A DNA stretch of 64,000 nt from Roseivivax halodurans JCM 10272 (GTDB taxonomy: Bacteria > Pseudomonadota > Alphaproteobacteria > Rhodobacterales > Rhodobacteraceae), in contig NZ_JALZ01000004.1 in the NCBI RefSeq assembly GCF_000521785.1, positions 124,001-188,000 on the forward strand, read 5' to 3'. Below are positions 8,499 through 64,000 of this stretch, in pieces. How positions within the stretch are numbered: position 1 is the first letter of the stretch; every line of letters starts with the position of its first letter. The position numbers and the translations under genes were made by a program. The notes below the pieces were generated by a model. It was not told where the DNA came from and searched no databases. It was given only the letters and a program-made list of their open reading frames with translations.

Positions 8499-9011
8499 TT
8501 AGCGCGCCGCGACGCGCGTCTGCACGCCGAAGCTCCGGACCGCCAAGGCGCCGAGCGCGAGCCCCGTGCTCACCACCGCGAAGACGCTGCCGATGCTCCA
8601 GGCATGGGCCAGCCACAGCACCTCGCCGATCACCACCAATCCGGTCAGCATGTGGCGCGTGCAGTAGCAGACGCCGGTGTTGATGAAGAATGCCCCGAGG
8701 ATCGGCAGGAGGGCCCGCCCGTCCGTCTGCCCCATCGCGACCGAGACGAGCGCCGCCGCCGCGACGGTCACGTTGACCAGCCAGGCGGCGCGTCCGAGCC
8801 GGGACAGACCGAGCATCCGGGCCCCGATCATGACCATGGCGATGACCAGCATCGACGCGCCGGCGGCGTCGCCGAGCGCCAGGAAATGCCCGGCCCAGGC
8901 GCCGCAGCAGAGAAGGTTCAGCCGCCGCAGCAGGACGTCGTCGGGCAGGGCGTAGCTCGTCACCCCGGAGAGGAGCGCCAGCGACCCCAGAAGGGCGGCG
9001 AGTGTGGACAT
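8499..9011 (-). CDS. YgjV-like inner membrane protein
   Basis: 170 residues, almost entirely hydrophobic, with about five or six membrane spans and short loops. The pattern (ALLGSLALLSGVTSYALPD at the N-terminus, LLCCGAWAGHFLALGD, NTGVCYCTRHMLTG) fits the YgjV-type bacterial inner membrane protein family (Imp-YgjV). The family has no assigned biochemical function. Cysteine-rich segment CCGAWAGH and CYC are notable. Convergent with the small hypothetical gene, and followed upstream by a 229-base gap with a hairpin. Confidence 0.75.
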   Translation of the reverse strand: MSTLAALLGSLALLSGVTSYALPDDVLLRRLNLLCCGAWAGHFLALGDAAGASMLVIAMVMIGARMLGLSRLGRAAWLVNVTVAAAALVSVAMGQTDGRALLPILGAFFINTGVCYCTRHMLTGLVVIGEVLWLAHAWSIGSVFAVVSTGLALGALAVRSFGVQTRVAAR

Positions 9012-9160
9012 GTCGGTGTGATCGTCTCGTGGCGCCGGGCAGGCGGATCTTGCGGGAAACCGTCTCGCCGGATGTGACTCGCCGGAAACGGATGAATTCG
9101 TTACGGTTTCACGTAATCCGGGACGAGCCGTCCCGTCGATTGCGCATCGGACTACCCAAT

Positions 9161-56601: not shown

Positions 56602-57195
56602 ATGCAGGCGGCGCTGGCCGGATTTACGCTGGGATTGTCGCTGATCCTCGCGATCGGCGCGCAGAATGCCTTCGTGCTGCGGCAGGGGCTGGCGCAACGT
56701 CACGTGCTCGCCGTGGTGCTGACCTGCGCGATCTCGGACGCGGCATTGATCGCCGCCGGCGTGGCAGGCATGGGCGCGCTCGGGCAGGCGTTGCCGTGGT
56801 TCGCTCCGGCGATGCGCCTCGGCGGGGCGGCCTTCCTGATCTGGTACGGGGCGCGGGCCCTTCTCGCGGCGTGGCGGGGCGGCGCGGCCATGGGCGCGAG
56901 CGGTGCGGCGGAGGGGCTTCGCGCGGCGCTTCTGACCTGTCTCGCGCTCACCTGGCTCAACCCGCATGTCTATCTCGACACTGTGGTGCTGATCGGCGCG
57001 GTCGCGGCCGGTTACGGCAACCGCCTGGCTTTCGGAGCCGGCGCGGTCGTCGCGTCCTTCGTCTTCTTCTTCGCCCTTGGATACGGCGCACGCGCCCTTG
57101 CGCCCCTCTTCGCGCGTCCGGCGTCCTGGCAGGCGCTCGACGCCATCATCGGGCTCACGATGTGGGCGATCGCGGTCTCGCTGCTTCTTCACTAA
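56602..57195 (+). CDS. LysE/ArgO-family amino acid exporter
   Basis: 197 residues with about six spans. The start AALAGFTLGLSLILAIGAQNAFVLRQGL carries the LysE pattern IGxQNxFVLRQG, and the middle LTCLALTWLNPHVYLDTVVLIGA is the second conserved block. Exports basic amino acids such as lysine or arginine. Substrate is not provable. GGAGGGG precedes the ATG. No LysG-type regulator gene adjoins it; the EamA gene follows after about 70 bases. Confidence 0.92.
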   Translation: MQAALAGFTLGLSLILAIGAQNAFVLRQGLAQRHVLAVVLTCAISDAALIAAGVAGMGALGQALPWFAPAMRLGGAAFLIWYGARALLAAWRGGAAMGASGAAEGLRAALLTCLALTWLNPHVYLDTVVLIGAVAAGYGNRLAFGAGAVVASFVFFFALGYGARALAPLFARPASWQALDAIIGLTMWAIAVSLLLH

Positions 57196-57264
57196 CGCCG
57201 CCCGGCCACAGCGGGAGCACGCCTTCCGGCTATCGGCTTGCAACTCAGCTGCACCCCGCGCTTG

Positions 57265-58176
57265 ATGCCCGCCATGAGTGACGCGGCGTATCGGCCCCTT
57301 GCGGGCATTCTCTGGATGATCGCGACGGGGTTCTGCTTCGTGATGGTGACGGCGCTGGTGAAGCTGCTCGGCGGCCGCATTCCCGCGGCCGAGAGCGCGT
57401 TCCTGCGGTATCTCCTGGGGCTCGTGTTCCTCATTCCCGCTTGGAAGCAGCTTGCGGCGATGAAGCTCGGGTCGCGCGGCTGGACGCTCTTCTCGATCCG
57501 CGGCGCGTTCCACACGTTGGGGGTGATCTGCTGGTTCTATGCCATGACCCGCATCCCGATCGCCGAGGTCACGGCGATGAACTACCTCAATCCGGTCTAC
57601 GTCTCGATCCTCGCGGTGCTGTTTCTCGGCGAGCAGATCGCTGCGCGACGCATCCTCGCCATCGTGGCCGCCTTGATCGGTGCGCTCGTGATCCTCCGGC
57701 CCGGCATCCGCGAGCTCGACCCCGGGCACATCGCGATGATCTTCACGGCGCTCCTTTTCGCCGGGTCGTATCTGACCGCCAAGATCCTGTCCGGTGAGCA
57801 CAGCGCAATTGTCGTGGTGGCCATGCTGTCGATCACGGTCACGATTGGGCTTGCGCCCTTCGCAGCGGCGAACTGGGTGACGCCGACGCCGGGAGAGCTC
57901 GGGATCCTCTTTTTCGTGGCCTGCTTCGCGACCGCCGGGCATTTCGCCATGACGAACGCCTTCGCCGCGGCGCCGGTGACGGTCACGCAGCCCGTCACCT
58001 TCCTGCAGCTCGTCTGGTCGGTGATCGTCGGCGCCGCGTTCTTCGCCGAGCCTCCCGACCCCTACGTTATCGCCGGGGGCGGGATCATCGTCGCCGCGGT
58101 GAGTTTCATCACCTGGCGCGAGGCAAGGGCCAAGAAGCGCGCGATCACGCCTCCGATCCACGCGACGAAGACCTGA
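57265..58176 (+). CDS. EamA/DMT-family transporter
   Basis: 303 residues from 57265; ATG at 57274 is an equal choice. Ten predicted spans in two EamA repeats, with the first repeat ending FLGEQIAARRILAIVAALIGALVIL and the second FFAEPPDPYVIAGGGIIVAAVSFI. These proteins export metabolites or import nucleotides and similar solutes; substrate unknown. Same strand as the LysE gene upstream and the bet cluster downstream. Confidence 0.88.
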   Translation: MPAMSDAAYRPLAGILWMIATGFCFVMVTALVKLLGGRIPAAESAFLRYLLGLVFLIPAWKQLAAMKLGSRGWTLFSIRGAFHTLGVICWFYAMTRIPIAEVTAMNYLNPVYVSILAVLFLGEQIAARRILAIVAALIGALVILRPGIRELDPGHIAMIFTALLFAGSYLTAKILSGEHSAIVVVAMLSITVTIGLAPFAAANWVTPTPGELGILFFVACFATAGHFAMTNAFAAAPVTVTQPVTFLQLVWSVIVGAAFFAEPPDPYVIAGGGIIVAAVSFITWREARAKKRAITPPIHATKT

Positions 58177-58323: not shown

Positions 58324-58356
58324 TTGATTGACGAGTCAATCAGTTCACGTTATCAC
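58324..58356 (+). promoter_or_regulatory. BetI-like operator overlapping the betC promoter
   Basis: TGATTGAC-GA-GTCAATCA (58325-58342) is a perfect dyad with 8-base arms. It covers the -35 box TTGACG (58328-58333) of a promoter with TATCAC at 58351-58356 (17-base spacer). The ATTGA...TCAAT core resembles the E. coli BetI site. A choline-responsive TetR-type repressor would block transcription here; betI itself is not in the window. Confidence 0.65.
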
Positions 58357-58393: not shown

Positions 58394-59902
58394 ATGAGCA
58401 GCCCGAACATCCTCGTGCTGATGGTGGACCAGCTGAACGGCACGCTCTTCCCGGACGGCCCGGCGGACTGGCTGCACATGCCGAACCTGCGCAAGTTGGC
58501 GGAGCGCTCGACGCGCTTCAAGAATGCCTACACCGCCTCGCCTCTCTGTGCGCCGGGCCGCGCCTCGTTCATGTCGGGTCAATTGCCTTCGGTCACGCGC
58601 GTCTACGACAACGCCGCCGAATTCTCCTCGGACATTCCCACCTATGCGCACCACCTGCGGCGGGCGGGGTACCAGACCTGCCTCTCGGGCAAGATGCACT
58701 TCGTTGGCCCCGACCAGCTCCACGGGTTCGAGGAGCGTCTGACGACCGACATCTACCCGGCCGATTTCGGCTGGACGCCTGACTATCGCAAACCGGGCGA
58801 GCGGATCGACTGGTGGTACCACAATCTCGGTAGCGTGACGGGAGCGGGTGTCGCGGAGATCTCCAACCAGATGGAGTACGACGACGACGTCGCCTATTTC
58901 GCGCAGCAGAAGCTTTACGATCTGGCGCGCGGCCACGATGCGCGTCCGTGGATGCTGACCGTCAGCTTCACGCACCCGCACGACCCTTACGTGGCGCGCC
59001 GCAAGTTCTGGGATCTCTACGAGGAGTGCGAGCATCTCGCTCCGGAGGTCGGCGCGCTCGGCTACGAGAACCACGACCCGCATTCGCAGCGCATCTTCGA
59101 TGCCAACGACTGGCGGAACTTCGAGATCACCGATGAGGACATCGCGCGGTCCCGCCGCGCCTATTACGCCAACATCTCCTATCTCGACGAGAAGGTGGGC
59201 GAGATCCTCGACGTGCTCGACCGCACCCGGCAGGAGGCGATCATCCTCTTCGTGTCGGATCACGGCGACATGCTCGGTGAGCGCGGGCTCTGGTTCAAGA
59301 TGTCCTTCTACGACGGCTCCGCGCGAGTGCCGCTGATGATCTCCGCGCCGGGCATGGAGCCGGGGCTCGTCGAAGAGCCCGTATCGACCATCGATGTCTG
59401 TCCGACGCTCTGCGAGCTCGCCGGCGTGTCCATGGCCGAGGTGATGCCCTGGACCGAGGGCGAGAGCCTCGTGAAGCTGGGGCAGGGCGGGACGCGCCGT
59501 TCCCCGGTGGCGATGGAGTATGCGGCCGAGGCCTCCAATTCTCCGCTGATCGGATTGCGCGAGGGGCGCTTCAAATACACCAATTGCGCGCTCGATCCCG
59601 AGCAGCTCTTCGATCTCGAGGCCGACCCGCACGAATTGGCGAACCTCGCCGAGGACGACGCGCACGCCCAGACCCTCGAGCGATTCCGCGAGATGGCGGC
59701 CTTGCGCTGGGATCTGGAACGCTTCGATGCGGAGGTCCGGCAGAGCCAGGCGCGGCGGTGGGTGGTCTACGATGCGTTGCGGCAGGGCGGGTATTACCCC
59801 TGGGATTTCCAGCCGCTTCAGAAGGCCTCCGAGCGGTATATGCGCAATCACATGGATCTGAACGTCGTCGAGGAAAGCCAGCGCTTCCCGCGCGGCGAGT
59901 GA
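58394..59902 (+). CDS. betC: Choline-sulfatase
   Basis: 502 residues from ATG at 58394 (CAGGAGG upstream); a 22-residue longer frame is unlikely. Alkaline phosphatase fold sulfatase: metal-binding D12, formylglycine site C52 in LCAPGRASFMSG (CxPxR), SGKMHFVG, and VSDHGDMLGERGLWFKMSF. The C-terminal ARRWVVYDALRQGGYYPWDFQPL is the choline-sulfatase tail. Splits choline-O-sulfate to choline and sulfate. First gene of the bet cluster. Needs a formylglycine-generating system not seen here. Confidence 0.94.
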   Translation: MSSPNILVLMVDQLNGTLFPDGPADWLHMPNLRKLAERSTRFKNAYTASPLCAPGRASFMSGQLPSVTRVYDNAAEFSSDIPTYAHHLRRAGYQTCLSGKMHFVGPDQLHGFEERLTTDIYPADFGWTPDYRKPGERIDWWYHNLGSVTGAGVAEISNQMEYDDDVAYFAQQKLYDLARGHDARPWMLTVSFTHPHDPYVARRKFWDLYEECEHLAPEVGALGYENHDPHSQRIFDANDWRNFEITDEDIARSRRAYYANISYLDEKVGEILDVLDRTRQEAIILFVSDHGDMLGERGLWFKMSFYDGSARVPLMISAPGMEPGLVEEPVSTIDVCPTLCELAGVSMAEVMPWTEGESLVKLGQGGTRRSPVAMEYAAEASNSPLIGLREGRFKYTNCALDPEQLFDLEADPHELANLAEDDAHAQTLERFREMAALRWDLERFDAEVRQSQARRWVVYDALRQGGYYPWDFQPLQKASERYMRNHMDLNVVEESQRFPRGE

Positions 59903-60036
59903 GGGCGGCGACACAAAAGAATATTCGAAACGTCGAATGAGCGACCTAGAAAGAGGCGGGTGCGAAAGGCCGCGCTGCCAGATGCGGTCGACATAGCGAG
60001 AAAGACAGAAACGCGAACAAGAACAAGGGAAGACGT

Positions 60037-61224
60037 ATGACCTACCTGATTTCGGTCGGCATCCTGATGGCCTTCACGTTGGTCATCATATGCACCGTGA
60101 AGTGGTGGAACCTGCGCCTGATCGGGCCAACCCCCGTGCCGCATTACGTCTTTATCGCGATCCTCTTCACGTCTGGACTCGATGTGGGGCTGATCATGTT
60201 CCCGCTCGCCTTCGATTTCCCGCTCTATGCCGATACCGAGGCGAACCCGGCCTATTCCTTCACCAATCCGCTGGCGCTCGAATTCGGCTTCTGGGGCTTC
60301 CTCATTTGGGCCTTCTACTTTCTCACGGCCTTTTACTTCTGCGCCATCGAGCCACGGGTCGAGTTCTTCAAGAAGCCGCTCGTGCGGCTCGTGAACAACG
60401 TGGTGATCGTAACCACCTGCGCCTTCACCGGCTCGCTCTTCCTCGTCTACCTGCCCTTTTACCTGCCGGGGATCGGCGACGGAGAGACGGTGGTGGCAAC
60501 CTTCTACGTCATCGTCTTCGCGGTGATCCTCGCCGCCGCCTACAGCTCGACCGACATCAAGTACGTGAAGGTCCTGTCCGTCGGCTCTTCCGCGCTCTTC
60601 CTGGCTCTGATCGCCTTCCTGTGGATCTACGCGGGCATCTCGCCCGGCGAATTCGGCGAGTCGATCGCCCATATCGGCGGCTACTTCGGCAATCTCCACC
60701 GCTTCGTTCTGCCGGTGACCGAGTACCACGAGTTCTACCTCTTCTGGTGGTTCGCATGGTCCATCATGATCGGTCAGTTCACCTCGCGCTTCGTGGGCGG
60801 CATGAAGACCCAGCACATGCTCGCGGCCCTGATGATCGTCCCCTCGATCCCGCTCGCGATCTGGTTCTCGGTGCTTTTCTACTATTACGAGGCCGGCATC
60901 TCGACCGAGGGCTTCGTCAACATCGCCATGGTGATCGTCGGCACGACCTTCGTGATCAACTCGCTCGACTCGCTGATCCGGCTCTACACCGACAATCTCG
61001 ACCTCACGACCGAGCGGTTCGGCAAGTGGAAATACGTGGCGGGCAACACCGCGGTGCTCTTCCTGCTGACGCTGCTCTTCAAGAGCCAGTGGCTCCAGAT
61101 CGAGTGGATCGGCGGCATCGTGATCGCCCTCTACGTCTCGGTGCTGGTCTACATCGCCATGCGCGCGCAGCACGTCGTGTCGGACCCCAAGGGCACCTAC
61201 AAGAAACCGGCGCTCGACCTCTGA
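60037..61224 (+). CDS. Short BCCT-like transporter, likely choline/betaine-type carrier
   Basis: 395 residues, about 10-11 spans. The segment EYHEFYLFWWFAWSIMIGQFTSRFVGG matches the Trp-rich TM8 region of BCCT carriers (WW..xWSPFVGxFIARxS), and LFTSGLDVGLIMFPLAF matches the TM3 unwound stretch. The protein begins where BCCT helix 3 normally lies, so it lacks the first two helices and is about 100-150 residues shorter than BetT/BetP. Lies 134 bases after betC and 53 bases before betB, which suggests choline or choline-sulfate import. The assignment to BCCT rests on motif resemblance. Confidence 0.75.
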   Translation: MTYLISVGILMAFTLVIICTVKWWNLRLIGPTPVPHYVFIAILFTSGLDVGLIMFPLAFDFPLYADTEANPAYSFTNPLALEFGFWGFLIWAFYFLTAFYFCAIEPRVEFFKKPLVRLVNNVVIVTTCAFTGSLFLVYLPFYLPGIGDGETVVATFYVIVFAVILAAAYSSTDIKYVKVLSVGSSALFLALIAFLWIYAGISPGEFGESIAHIGGYFGNLHRFVLPVTEYHEFYLFWWFAWSIMIGQFTSRFVGGMKTQHMLAALMIVPSIPLAIWFSVLFYYYEAGISTEGFVNIAMVIVGTTFVINSLDSLIRLYTDNLDLTTERFGKWKYVAGNTAVLFLLTLLFKSQWLQIEWIGGIVIALYVSVLVYIAMRAQHVVSDPKGTYKKPALDL

Positions 61225-61277: not shown

Positions 61278-62729
61278 ATGCAGACACAGCCGACTGCCAG
61301 CCATTTCGTCGATGGCGAATACATCGAGGACACCGCCGGAGAGAAGATCGAGGTGATCTATCCCGCCACCGGCGAGGTGATCGCGACCGTATACGCGGCA
61401 ACCGAGGCCGTGATCGACCGCGCGCTCGACAGCGCGGTGAGGGCCCAGGCCGAATGGGCGAAGATATCCCCGCGCGAGCGCGGCCGGGTCCTCACGCGAG
61501 CCTCTCAGATCATGCGCGAGCGCAACCGGGAGCTTTCCGAGCTCGAGACCATGGATACCGGCAAGCCGCTCCAGGAGACGCTCGTCGCCGATGCGACCTC
61601 GGGCGCGGATGCGCTCGAGTATTTCGGCGGCATCGCCGCGGGCCTCACCGGAGAGCACATCCCGCTCGGCGAGGACTGGGCCTACACGATCCGCGAGCCT
61701 CTCGGCGTCTGCGCGGGGATCGGGGCGTGGAACTACCCGACCCAGATCGCCTGCTGGAAGGCCGGTCCGGCGCTCGCCTGCGGCAACGCGATGGTCTTCA
61801 AGCCCTCCGAGACGACTCCGCTCTGCACGCTGAAGGTGGCCGAGATCCTTGTCGAGGCGGGCCTGCCGGCGGGGCTCTTCAACGTCGTGCAGGGCATGGG
61901 GCCCGTGGGCGCCGCGCTGACGACGGATCCGCGCGTCGCGAAGGTGTCGCTGACGGGCTCCGCGCCGACCGGGCGCAAGGTCTATTCCTCGGCGGCGGAG
62001 CACATGAAGCACGTCACCATGGAGCTTGGCGGCAAGTCCCCGATGCTGGTCTTCGACGACGCCGATCTCGACGACGCAGTCGGCGGCGCGATCATGGGCA
62101 ACTTCTACTCTTCGGGGCAGATCTGCACCAACGGCACGCGGGTCTTCGTCCAGAAGGGGCTCCGCGAGGCCTTCGTCGATCGCATGGCCGAGCGGATGAA
62201 GGACGCGGTGATCGGCGATCCGCTCGACGAGGGCACGAATTTCGGGCCGATGGTCTCCGCGACGCAGATCGGGATCGTGGAGCGCTACCTCGAGATCGCC
62301 GAGAAGGAAGGCGCGCGCCGCGTCGTAGGGGGCGAACGTCTCGACCGGCCGGGCTACTGGCTGACGCCCGCGCTCTTCGACGGCGTGACCGACGACATGA
62401 CCATGGCGCGCGAAGAGATCTTCGGGCCGGTCCTGTCGGTGCTCGAGTTCGAGACCGAGGAAGAGGGCATTGCCCGCGCCAACGCCACGGAGTTCGGCCT
62501 CGCGGCGGGTGTCTTCACCAAAGACATCTCGCGGGCGCACCGGGTGATCGGCCAGCTGCGTGCAGGCACGTGCTTCATCAACTCCTACAACGACGCGCCG
62601 GTCGAGATGCCGTTTGGCGGCGTGAAGATGTCGGGGGTCGGCCGCGAGAACGCCAAGGCGGCGATCGAGCATTACAGCCAGGTGAAGTCCGTCTACGTGC
62701 GGATGGGCCGGATGGAAGCGCCCTTCTGA
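61278..62729 (+). CDS. betB: Betaine aldehyde dehydrogenase
   Basis: 483 residues. Aldehyde dehydrogenase fold: NAD-binding PWNYP-type segment [13 protein letters not shown] at 149-161, KPSETTPL, catalytic E249 in [10 protein letters not shown], and nucleophile C283 in [12 protein letters not shown], where [10 protein letters not shown] is the BetB wording. Oxidises betaine aldehyde to glycine betaine with NAD(P)+. Start ATG at 61278 follows AGAGAGAC. Followed by betA after 211 bases of structured sequence. Confidence 0.96.
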
Positions 62730-62940: not shown

Positions 62941-64000
62941 ATGGAAGCGGATTACGTCATCGTCGGTGCCGGGAGCGCGGGATGCGCCATGGCCTATCGT
63001 CTGGTCGAGGCCGGGAAGTCGGTCATCGTCATCGAGTACGGCGGCTGGGACGGCGGCCCGTTCATCAACATGCCGGGGGCGCTGAGCTACCCGATGAACA
63101 TGTCGATCTACGACTGGGGCTACCAGTCCGAACCCGAGCCGCATCTCGGAGGCCGTCAGCTCGCGGCGCCGCGCGGCAAGGTGATCGGCGGCTCGTCGTC
63201 GATCAACGGCATGGTCTATGTCCGCGGCCATGCGATGGATTACGACCATTGGCGCGATCAGGGCGCCGACGGTTGGGGCTACGCGGACGTTCTGCCGTAT
63301 TTCAAGCGGATGGAGACCTCGCATGGCGGCCAGAAGGGATGGCGCGGCACCGACGGGCCGCTCCACATCAGCCGCGGCAAGCGCGACAACCCGCTGACCC
63401 AGGCCTTCGTCGAGGCTGGCCGAGAGGCCGGATACGAGACCACGGCGGATTACAACGGCGAGAAGCAGGAAGGCTTCGGACCGATGGAAGCGACCATCCA
63501 CCGCGGCGCGCGCTGGTCCGCCGCGCAGGCCTATCTGCGCCCCGCGCAGAAGAAGGGCGCCGTCCTTCATAAGGGCATGGTCACAAAGGTGGTGATCGAA
63601 GAGGGGCGCGCAACCGGCGTCGAGGTCGAGCGCGGGGGCAGTCGCGAGACGATCCGCGCGCGCGCCGAGGTCATCCTCTCGGCCTCGGCCTTCAACACGC
63701 CGAAGCTGCTGATGCTGTCGGGCGTCGGGCCGGCCGCCCATCTCGCCGAGCACGGGATCGATGTCGTCGCGGACCGGCCGGGTGTCGGCGCGAACCTCCA
63801 GGACCATCTCGAGCTCTACATCCAGATGGCGGCGACGCAGCCCGTCAGCCTCTTCAAGTACTGGAACCTGCTCGGCAAGGCCTATGTGGGCGCGCGCTGG
63901 CTGCTGACGCGGACGGGTCCGGGGGCGTCGAACCAGTTCGAGAGCGCCGCCTTCATCCGCTCCCGCCCGGGCGTGCAATACCCGGACATCCAGTACCACT
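62941..64000 (+). CDS. betA: Choline dehydrogenase (C-terminus cut by window edge)
   Basis: About 353 residues are visible from ATG at 62941 (GGAGATG upstream). GMC flavoprotein: FAD loop [18 protein letters not shown] at 4-21, GMC signature [18 protein letters not shown] at about 79-96, and [19 protein letters not shown] at about 243-261. Oxidises choline to betaine aldehyde at the membrane; BetB does the next step. The catalytic histidines lie beyond the window edge. The pathway neighbours make the name safe. Confidence 0.95.

Follow-up and report, generated by a model that had tools for sequence, protein, structure and literature searches.

Organisation of the bet locus

A short carrier gene was found between betC and betB in the window, which is a 64,000-nucleotide stretch of DNA from Roseivivax halodurans JCM 10272, the gene order being betC-BCCT-betB-betA. 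The features of this locus are:

58327..58340, + strand: BetI-box-like palindrome ATTGACGAGTCAAT, 53 bases 5' of the betC ATG
58394..59902, + strand: betC, choline sulfatase (ATG as read; TIGR03417, 892.8 bits, over the cut-off)
60037..61224, + strand: short BetT, predicted 11-TM BCCT-type carrier of 395 aa (open reading frame, PF02028, AlphaFold2 model and homology to Ruegeria pomeroyi)
61278..62729, + strand: betB, betaine-aldehyde dehydrogenase (TIGR01804, 684.5 bits vs. a cut-off of 668.6)
62941..64000, + strand: betA, choline dehydrogenase (TIGR01810), running past the window end and continuing in locus L117

Because the window stops within betA, the fragment of this gene stayed under the TIGR01810 cut-off (513.2 bits vs. 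the 732.1 required). The choline-sulfate cluster proposed in the initial annotation was recovered, with betC and betB over curated cut-offs and betA adjacent, and the catabolic uptake role suggested there fits a carrier gene located within a catabolic choline operon.

A single base separates the palindrome before betC from the R. pomeroyi BetI1 box given in PMC12442346. When up to one mismatch was allowed, this was the only site of its type in the window (0.03 expected), and 3 of 100 shuffled sequences contained a match. The cluster itself has no betI, and the best BetI-type regulator of the genome (TIGR03384, 210.3 bits vs. a cut-off of 201.3) is encoded on another contig (locus L144, G000:C1:286000-302000, at 8504-9103), where betA, betB and betC were not found in the 16 kb around it. 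We infer that this orphan regulator controls the bet operon of the window, and the choline/choline-O-sulfate catabolic operon is probably BetI-controlled. Many relatives keep betI beside betC or beside the carrier gene; here the regulator is an orphan and the BetI-box-like site before betC has been kept.

Genes for a LysE-type and an EamA-type transporter are located directly upstream of betC (window positions 56602-58176). The same pair was detected upstream of the bet cluster in relatives such as L038, L046, L066, L087, L098, L148, L149, L154, L155 and the R. pomeroyi locus L167, which makes this a conserved neighbourhood.

Integrity of the short reading frame

The frame at 60037-61224 (+) starts with an ATG and encodes 395 residues, the length given in the initial annotation. 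It is about 150-200 residues below the other BCCT frames of the same genome, which are four full-length frames of 559-592 aa from stop to stop, as would be expected of a degraded or mis-started BCCT gene whose TM1 had been lost by mutation or was encoded further upstream. However, an in-frame stop is located at 59947, 29 hydrophilic codons ahead of the ATG, so that no helix is hidden in frame before position 60037. The relatives of the short BCCT also keep its length (382-406 aa) and its start; an upstream stop could be seen in 111 rows, 93 of which leave room for 45 residues or less, and none of 56 upstream extensions of short-BCCT rows, examined over at most 87 residues before the start, reached a helix-like hydropathy of 1.6. 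In addition, dN/dS between the window gene and three homologues was about 0.13-0.22, and the short orthologue of R. pomeroyi is functional, as seen from the published mutants discussed below. A truncated or mis-started gene was therefore rejected on the conserved short form, the upstream stop, the hydrophilic extensions and the dN/dS values, the probability left for it being negligible. The initial annotation had supposed that such a stripped carrier could be functional, and we judge this to be likely.

Relationship with the BCCT family

The BCCT relationship proposed in the initial annotation held in a profile search, in which the protein reached 36.7 bits with PF02028 (BCCT), over the gathering cut-off of 27, and BCCT was the sole Pfam family listed even at E ≤ 10. 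All 46 rows of alignment A1, which includes 45 of the 80 best loci, matched PF02028 at E ≤ 10 (best E 1.3e-9), any other Pfam family matching at most eight rows at this threshold.

The sequence match to solved structures was only weak. In a single-sequence phmmer search, BetP was found at E 0.0097 and all 10 matches at E ≤ 1 were BCCTs, and a profile search gave a trimethylamine transporter (E 0.0012) and the BetT-type transporter 9vbp (E 0.0015), with BCCTs accounting for 11 of the 12 matches at E ≤ 10 and a bile salt hydrolase (E 1.6) for the other. Matches to Pfam and to structures were thus all led by BCCT, with none better outside the family.

The narrower NCBIfam model for BCCT, TIGR00842, gave 24.8 bits for the window protein vs. 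a cut-off of 407.55, and the R. pomeroyi orthologue matched no NCBIfam model at E ≤ 1e-5. The window protein is a divergent BCCT relative, which would work like a BCCT and falls within the family as Pfam broadly defines it, but misses two narrower definitions, namely TIGR00842 and, in the predicted model, the presence of twelve helices.

Predicted structure and the missing helix

The protein was modelled with AlphaFold2 from the 46-row alignment (pLDDT 86.5, pTM 0.84), as a monomer, whereas BCCTs form homotrimers. The model contains eleven long helices and one amphipathic helix at residues 203-218, which lies between TM7 and TM8. From the first helix to the last it covers residues 2-382 of 395, which leaves almost no tails. 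When compared with solved structures by Foldseek (E ≤ 0.001), 44 of 45 matches were BCCT structures, a BetP-G153D structure with bound choline among them, and the last one was CodB. The best match in VIA-align was BetP (Z 31.0, rmsd 3.3, 368 aligned residues, almost end to end), further BCCTs being BetT (8ybr, Z 27.6) and CaiT (Z 25.6). The best non-BCCT row was CHT1, of the SSS choline transporters, with a weaker fold match (Z 19.2) than BetP. The LeuT-fold core (BCCT TM3-TM12) is present in the predicted model, and a fold unlike LeuT, the outcome that the initial annotation had set against its own proposal, was not obtained.

The position of the first residue was read from several alignments. 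Residue 1 of the model was aligned by VIA-align with BetP 99, BetT 55 and CaiT 51, the LeuT-fold core (BCCT TM3) starting at BetP 138 and CaiT 88 according to Table 1 of PMC3578728. By phmmer and hmmsearch, residues 4-5 onward align with the BetP helix that precedes the GMGIG motif. Moreover, a single hydrophobic region was detected before TM3 in the window protein vs. two in each of the four full-length BCCTs of the genome. Since residue 1 falls on BetP 99, the core begins at BetP 138 and there is one hydrophobic region before TM3, one helix is missing and not two. The initial annotation, which had the protein starting at helix 3 without helices 1 and 2, has to be corrected on this point, as only helix 1 is gone and helix 2 is present:

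60040..60102, + strand: first helix, residues 2-22, corresponding to BCCT TM2 (model helix; residue 1 on BetP 99)

As modelled, the window protein has TM2-TM12, with the amphipathic helix that separates TM7 from TM8, and the full aromatic box, whereas TM1 is absent and the tails are almost absent. All BCCTs are described as having twelve TM domains (PMC12093977), vs. the eleven long helices predicted here, the first of which is the TM2 equivalent. The long regulatory N- or C-terminal tails of osmoregulated BetT and BetP were not found either, as a single residue precedes the first helix of the model and the last one ends at 382 of 395, and the statement of the initial annotation that long osmosensing tails are lacking was correct. 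Such a long regulatory C-terminal tail is reported for BetT of E. coli and P. syringae (PMC4744692). The solved BetT-type choline transporters (9vbp and 8ybr) share the predicted fold and the aromatic box with the window protein, but both have the TM1 that is missing from the model. Similarly, BetP, a Na+-coupled glycine betaine carrier, is the best fold match and its aromatic residues of TM4 and TM8 align with those of the window protein, which differs from it by the absence of TM1 and of the sensing tails, and by Asp49 in place of G151. A limited literature search found no description of this BetT branch without TM1 or with an invariant hinge Asp.

Conserved motifs

Conservation was assayed in 113 rows (the query, the 80 best loci and 32 others, with some genomes represented twice). 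The motifs considered are:

60175..60189, + strand: TM3 hinge GLDVG, residues 47-51, with Asp49 (aligned to BetP GMGIG and 9vbp GIGID)
60292..60318, + strand: TM4 part of the aromatic box, residues 86-94, with W86, W91 and Y94 (aligned to BetP)
60745..60759, + strand: TM8 part of the aromatic box, residues 237-241, with W237, W238 and W241 (aligned to BetP)
60958..60972, + strand: TM10 NSLDS, residues 308-312 (conserved; putative ion-site role)

The hinge residues G47, D49 and G51, the tryptophans W86, W91, W237, W238 and W241 and the TM10 residues N308, S309, D311 and S312 were found in 113 of 113 rows, and Y94 in 112, with one gap. The aromatic substrate box of BCCTs (TM4 plus TM8) is complete, as phmmer placed W86/W91/Y94 and W237/W238/W241 on the aromatic residues of BetP; the TM8 stretch of the latter reads FYWAWWISWSP, and the resemblance of FWWFAWSIMIGQFTSR to the Trp box of helix 8, noticed in the initial annotation, was borne out by this alignment. 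The NSLDS motif presumably faces the Na2-type ion site of BetP (T467, S468), where Asn308 of the window protein would replace a Thr.

The hinge differs from those of the solved carriers. D49 aligns with the second Gly of BetP GMGIG (G151), and in the profile alignment G51 shares a column with the Asp of 9vbp, so that the window Asp sits two residues before that of this BetT-type choline transporter (third position in GLDVG vs. fifth in GIGID). The entry name of 9vbp, 'High-affinity choline transport protein', is the name of E. coli BetT. The genome of the window encodes four full-length BCCTs, and a GxGxD hinge was absent from all of them. In monoamine transporters, a substrate-binding Asp occupies the LeuT-24 position (SERT D98, DAT D79). 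This position corresponds to BetP 151, since BetP 138-162 is equated with LeuT 11-35 in Table 1 of PMC3578728.

The orthologue of Ruegeria pomeroyi DSS-3

Genome G455 was taken as that of R. pomeroyi DSS-3, as a stretch of the DSS-3 megaplasmid (NC_006569.1) matches it at 100% with identical coordinates. Its sole match to the window protein was detected at C1:1141879-1143012 and corresponds to a short BCCT of 400 aa, with 66% identity over 394 residues. The genes of this locus follow the order LysE-EamA-(137-aa ORF)-betI1-betC-two ORFs (119 and 268 aa)-betI2 (reverse)-short BCCT-betA, with the exact 14-base BetI1 box ahead of betI1 and repeats of the AAACTTGAAC type in the interval from betI2 to the carrier gene. 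As the same order and operator motifs appear in the published layout of SPO1082-1088 (PMC12442346), the short BCCT of this genome is BetT/SPO1087. On the basis of gene order, motifs and identity, and with betC and betA as neighbours, the window protein can be assigned as an orthologue within the SPO1087 group of Roseobacter BetTs. The two share the hinge and aromatic motifs, an adjoining betA and BetI boxes, whereas the order in the window is betC-betT-betB-betA without betI in the cluster.

The growth of R. pomeroyi betT mutants has been described in two studies. In the first one, the mutant grew at 0.012 vs. 0.073 per h on choline and at 0.027 vs. 0.043 per h on choline-O-sulfate (COS), with unchanged growth on glycine betaine (PMC4744692). 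In the second, the mutant could neither grow on choline nor draw it down, and a table row for betT gives 100.5 and 94.1, which we take as percent defects (PMC10130141). The two studies differ on choline, with slow residual growth in the former (PMC4744692) and none in the latter (PMC10130141).

Phaeobacter sp. MED193 BetT (MED193_21671) was among the proteins induced on phosphocholine, and the published order around it, TetR-BetT-BetC-BetB-BetA (PMC10132767), is that of the Leisingera locus L087, which carries a short BCCT; the likeness of the MED193 protein to the short BCCT is one of gene order alone.

As the R. pomeroyi orthologue is a genetically tested BetT already noted as short, the novelty implied by the initial annotation shrinks: short BetTs of this kind are already known, and the window gene belongs to an already studied BetT group. 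The BetT of E. coli has 677 aa, a difference of about 280. The published remark that the BetTs of E. coli and P. syringae exceed that of R. pomeroyi by over 100 residues, made where nutrient uptake was inferred (PMC4744692), therefore fits only loosely.

Distribution of the relatives

Strong matches (E ≤ 1e-30) were present in 28 of 394 genomes sampled across the family, of which three had 44-45% identity. Within the genus to which the Ruegeria locus L114 belongs, 31 of 54 genomes had such a match. In the genus of R. pomeroyi, four of five genomes had a strong match and the fifth had weak ones only. With a model based on the Lidbury sequences, about 5-10% of marine bacteria were reported to have betT (PMC10132767).

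Matches were also detected in 13 plasmid records: seven of Pseudoalteromonas (58-59%), four of Sinorhizobium (43.5-44.7%) and two of Agrobacterium (23.7%), the last two being full-length BCCTs. In six of the 11 Pseudoalteromonas and Sinorhizobium records the gene is labelled 'BCCT family transporter'; the other five have no gene entry at this place. The order in Pseudoalteromonas sp. Bsw20308 is betI-betB-betA-BCCT. Sinorhizobium meliloti pSymB (L168), together with L021, L137 and L138, makes up a branch that is further away (44-45% identity). The neighbours of the Sinorhizobium copy encode an Lrp/AsnC regulator and a class V aminotransferase, and no bet gene is annotated in its vicinity.

The locus set comprised the best 80 of at least 578 relatives, and betA, betB or betC was found nearby in 57 of these 80. 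The other 23 had none of the three in the DNA examined, some of them on short contigs. Relatives without bet genes (L105, L107 and L114 of Ruegeria; L052, L082, L103, L108 and others) often stand alone among unrelated genes.

Cargo and proposed mechanism

Choline import is the most likely function of the window gene, because orthologous betT mutants are badly impaired on choline, less so on COS and not on glycine betaine. We therefore consider it very probable that it encodes the BetT orthologue of a choline/choline-O-sulfate catabolic operon, in the form of a predicted 11-TM BCCT-like LeuT-fold carrier without TM1. Choline would enter by cation-coupled symport (Na+ or H+), with alternating access in the LeuT-fold core; the aromatic box of TM4 and TM8 would hold its trimethylammonium group, with the invariant hinge Asp49 nearby, and BetA and then BetB would oxidise the imported choline to glycine betaine. 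COS would be hydrolysed inside the cell by BetC and is probably a secondary cargo of the carrier, which perhaps also aids choline-sulfate uptake.

That COS, and not choline, should be the main cargo in this operon seems improbable. The carrier gene immediately follows betC, the product of which acts in the cytoplasm and showed no evident signal peptide when its N-terminus was read by eye; moreover, on COS the growth rate of the R. pomeroyi betT mutant is reduced by 38% (PMC4744692), and its growth is also poorer with COS as nitrogen source (PMC12442346). Nevertheless, loss of the orthologue has a much larger effect on the use of choline than on that of COS (PMC4744692, PMC10130141), a further COS transport system was inferred in both PMC4744692 and PMC12442346, and in L060 (cut by a contig end), L098 and Pseudoalteromonas the gene is found with betA but without betC in the DNA examined.

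An even smaller probability is given to another quaternary amine or osmolyte as cargo (glycine betaine, carnitine or DMSP) or to a broad specificity. The aromatic box is common to betaine carriers, and PMC10132767 warns that BCCT-type BetT may be unspecific, but the gene shares its operon with choline enzymes and the R. pomeroyi mutant was unchanged on glycine betaine (PMC4744692). The 23 of the best 80 relatives without bet genes speak for such a cargo; together with the genes around the Sinorhizobium copy, they count against the choline importer, and for this reason not every member of the short BCCTs need carry choline, and the relatives without bet genes may differ in cargo.

For this locus alone, the outcome is an annotation as choline importer with a well-supported function. 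What deserves the attention of specialists is the lack of TM1 and the displaced hinge Asp. The balance is even on whether marine BetTs are a widespread functional BCCT branch without TM1, in which choline is recognised or coupled by an Asp that has moved to the BetP-G151/LeuT-24 hinge position, and not by one at the BetP-G153 position as in the solved BetT-type choline transporter, this function of D49 being one that we infer. If true, TM1 would be dispensable for transport by BCCTs, and the moved hinge Asp would offer a natural comparison for the discrimination between choline and betaine.

Elsewhere in the same genome (L001, G000:C14), a full-length BCCT gene adjoins a second choline-dehydrogenase-like gene, the product of which is 42% identical to BetA.
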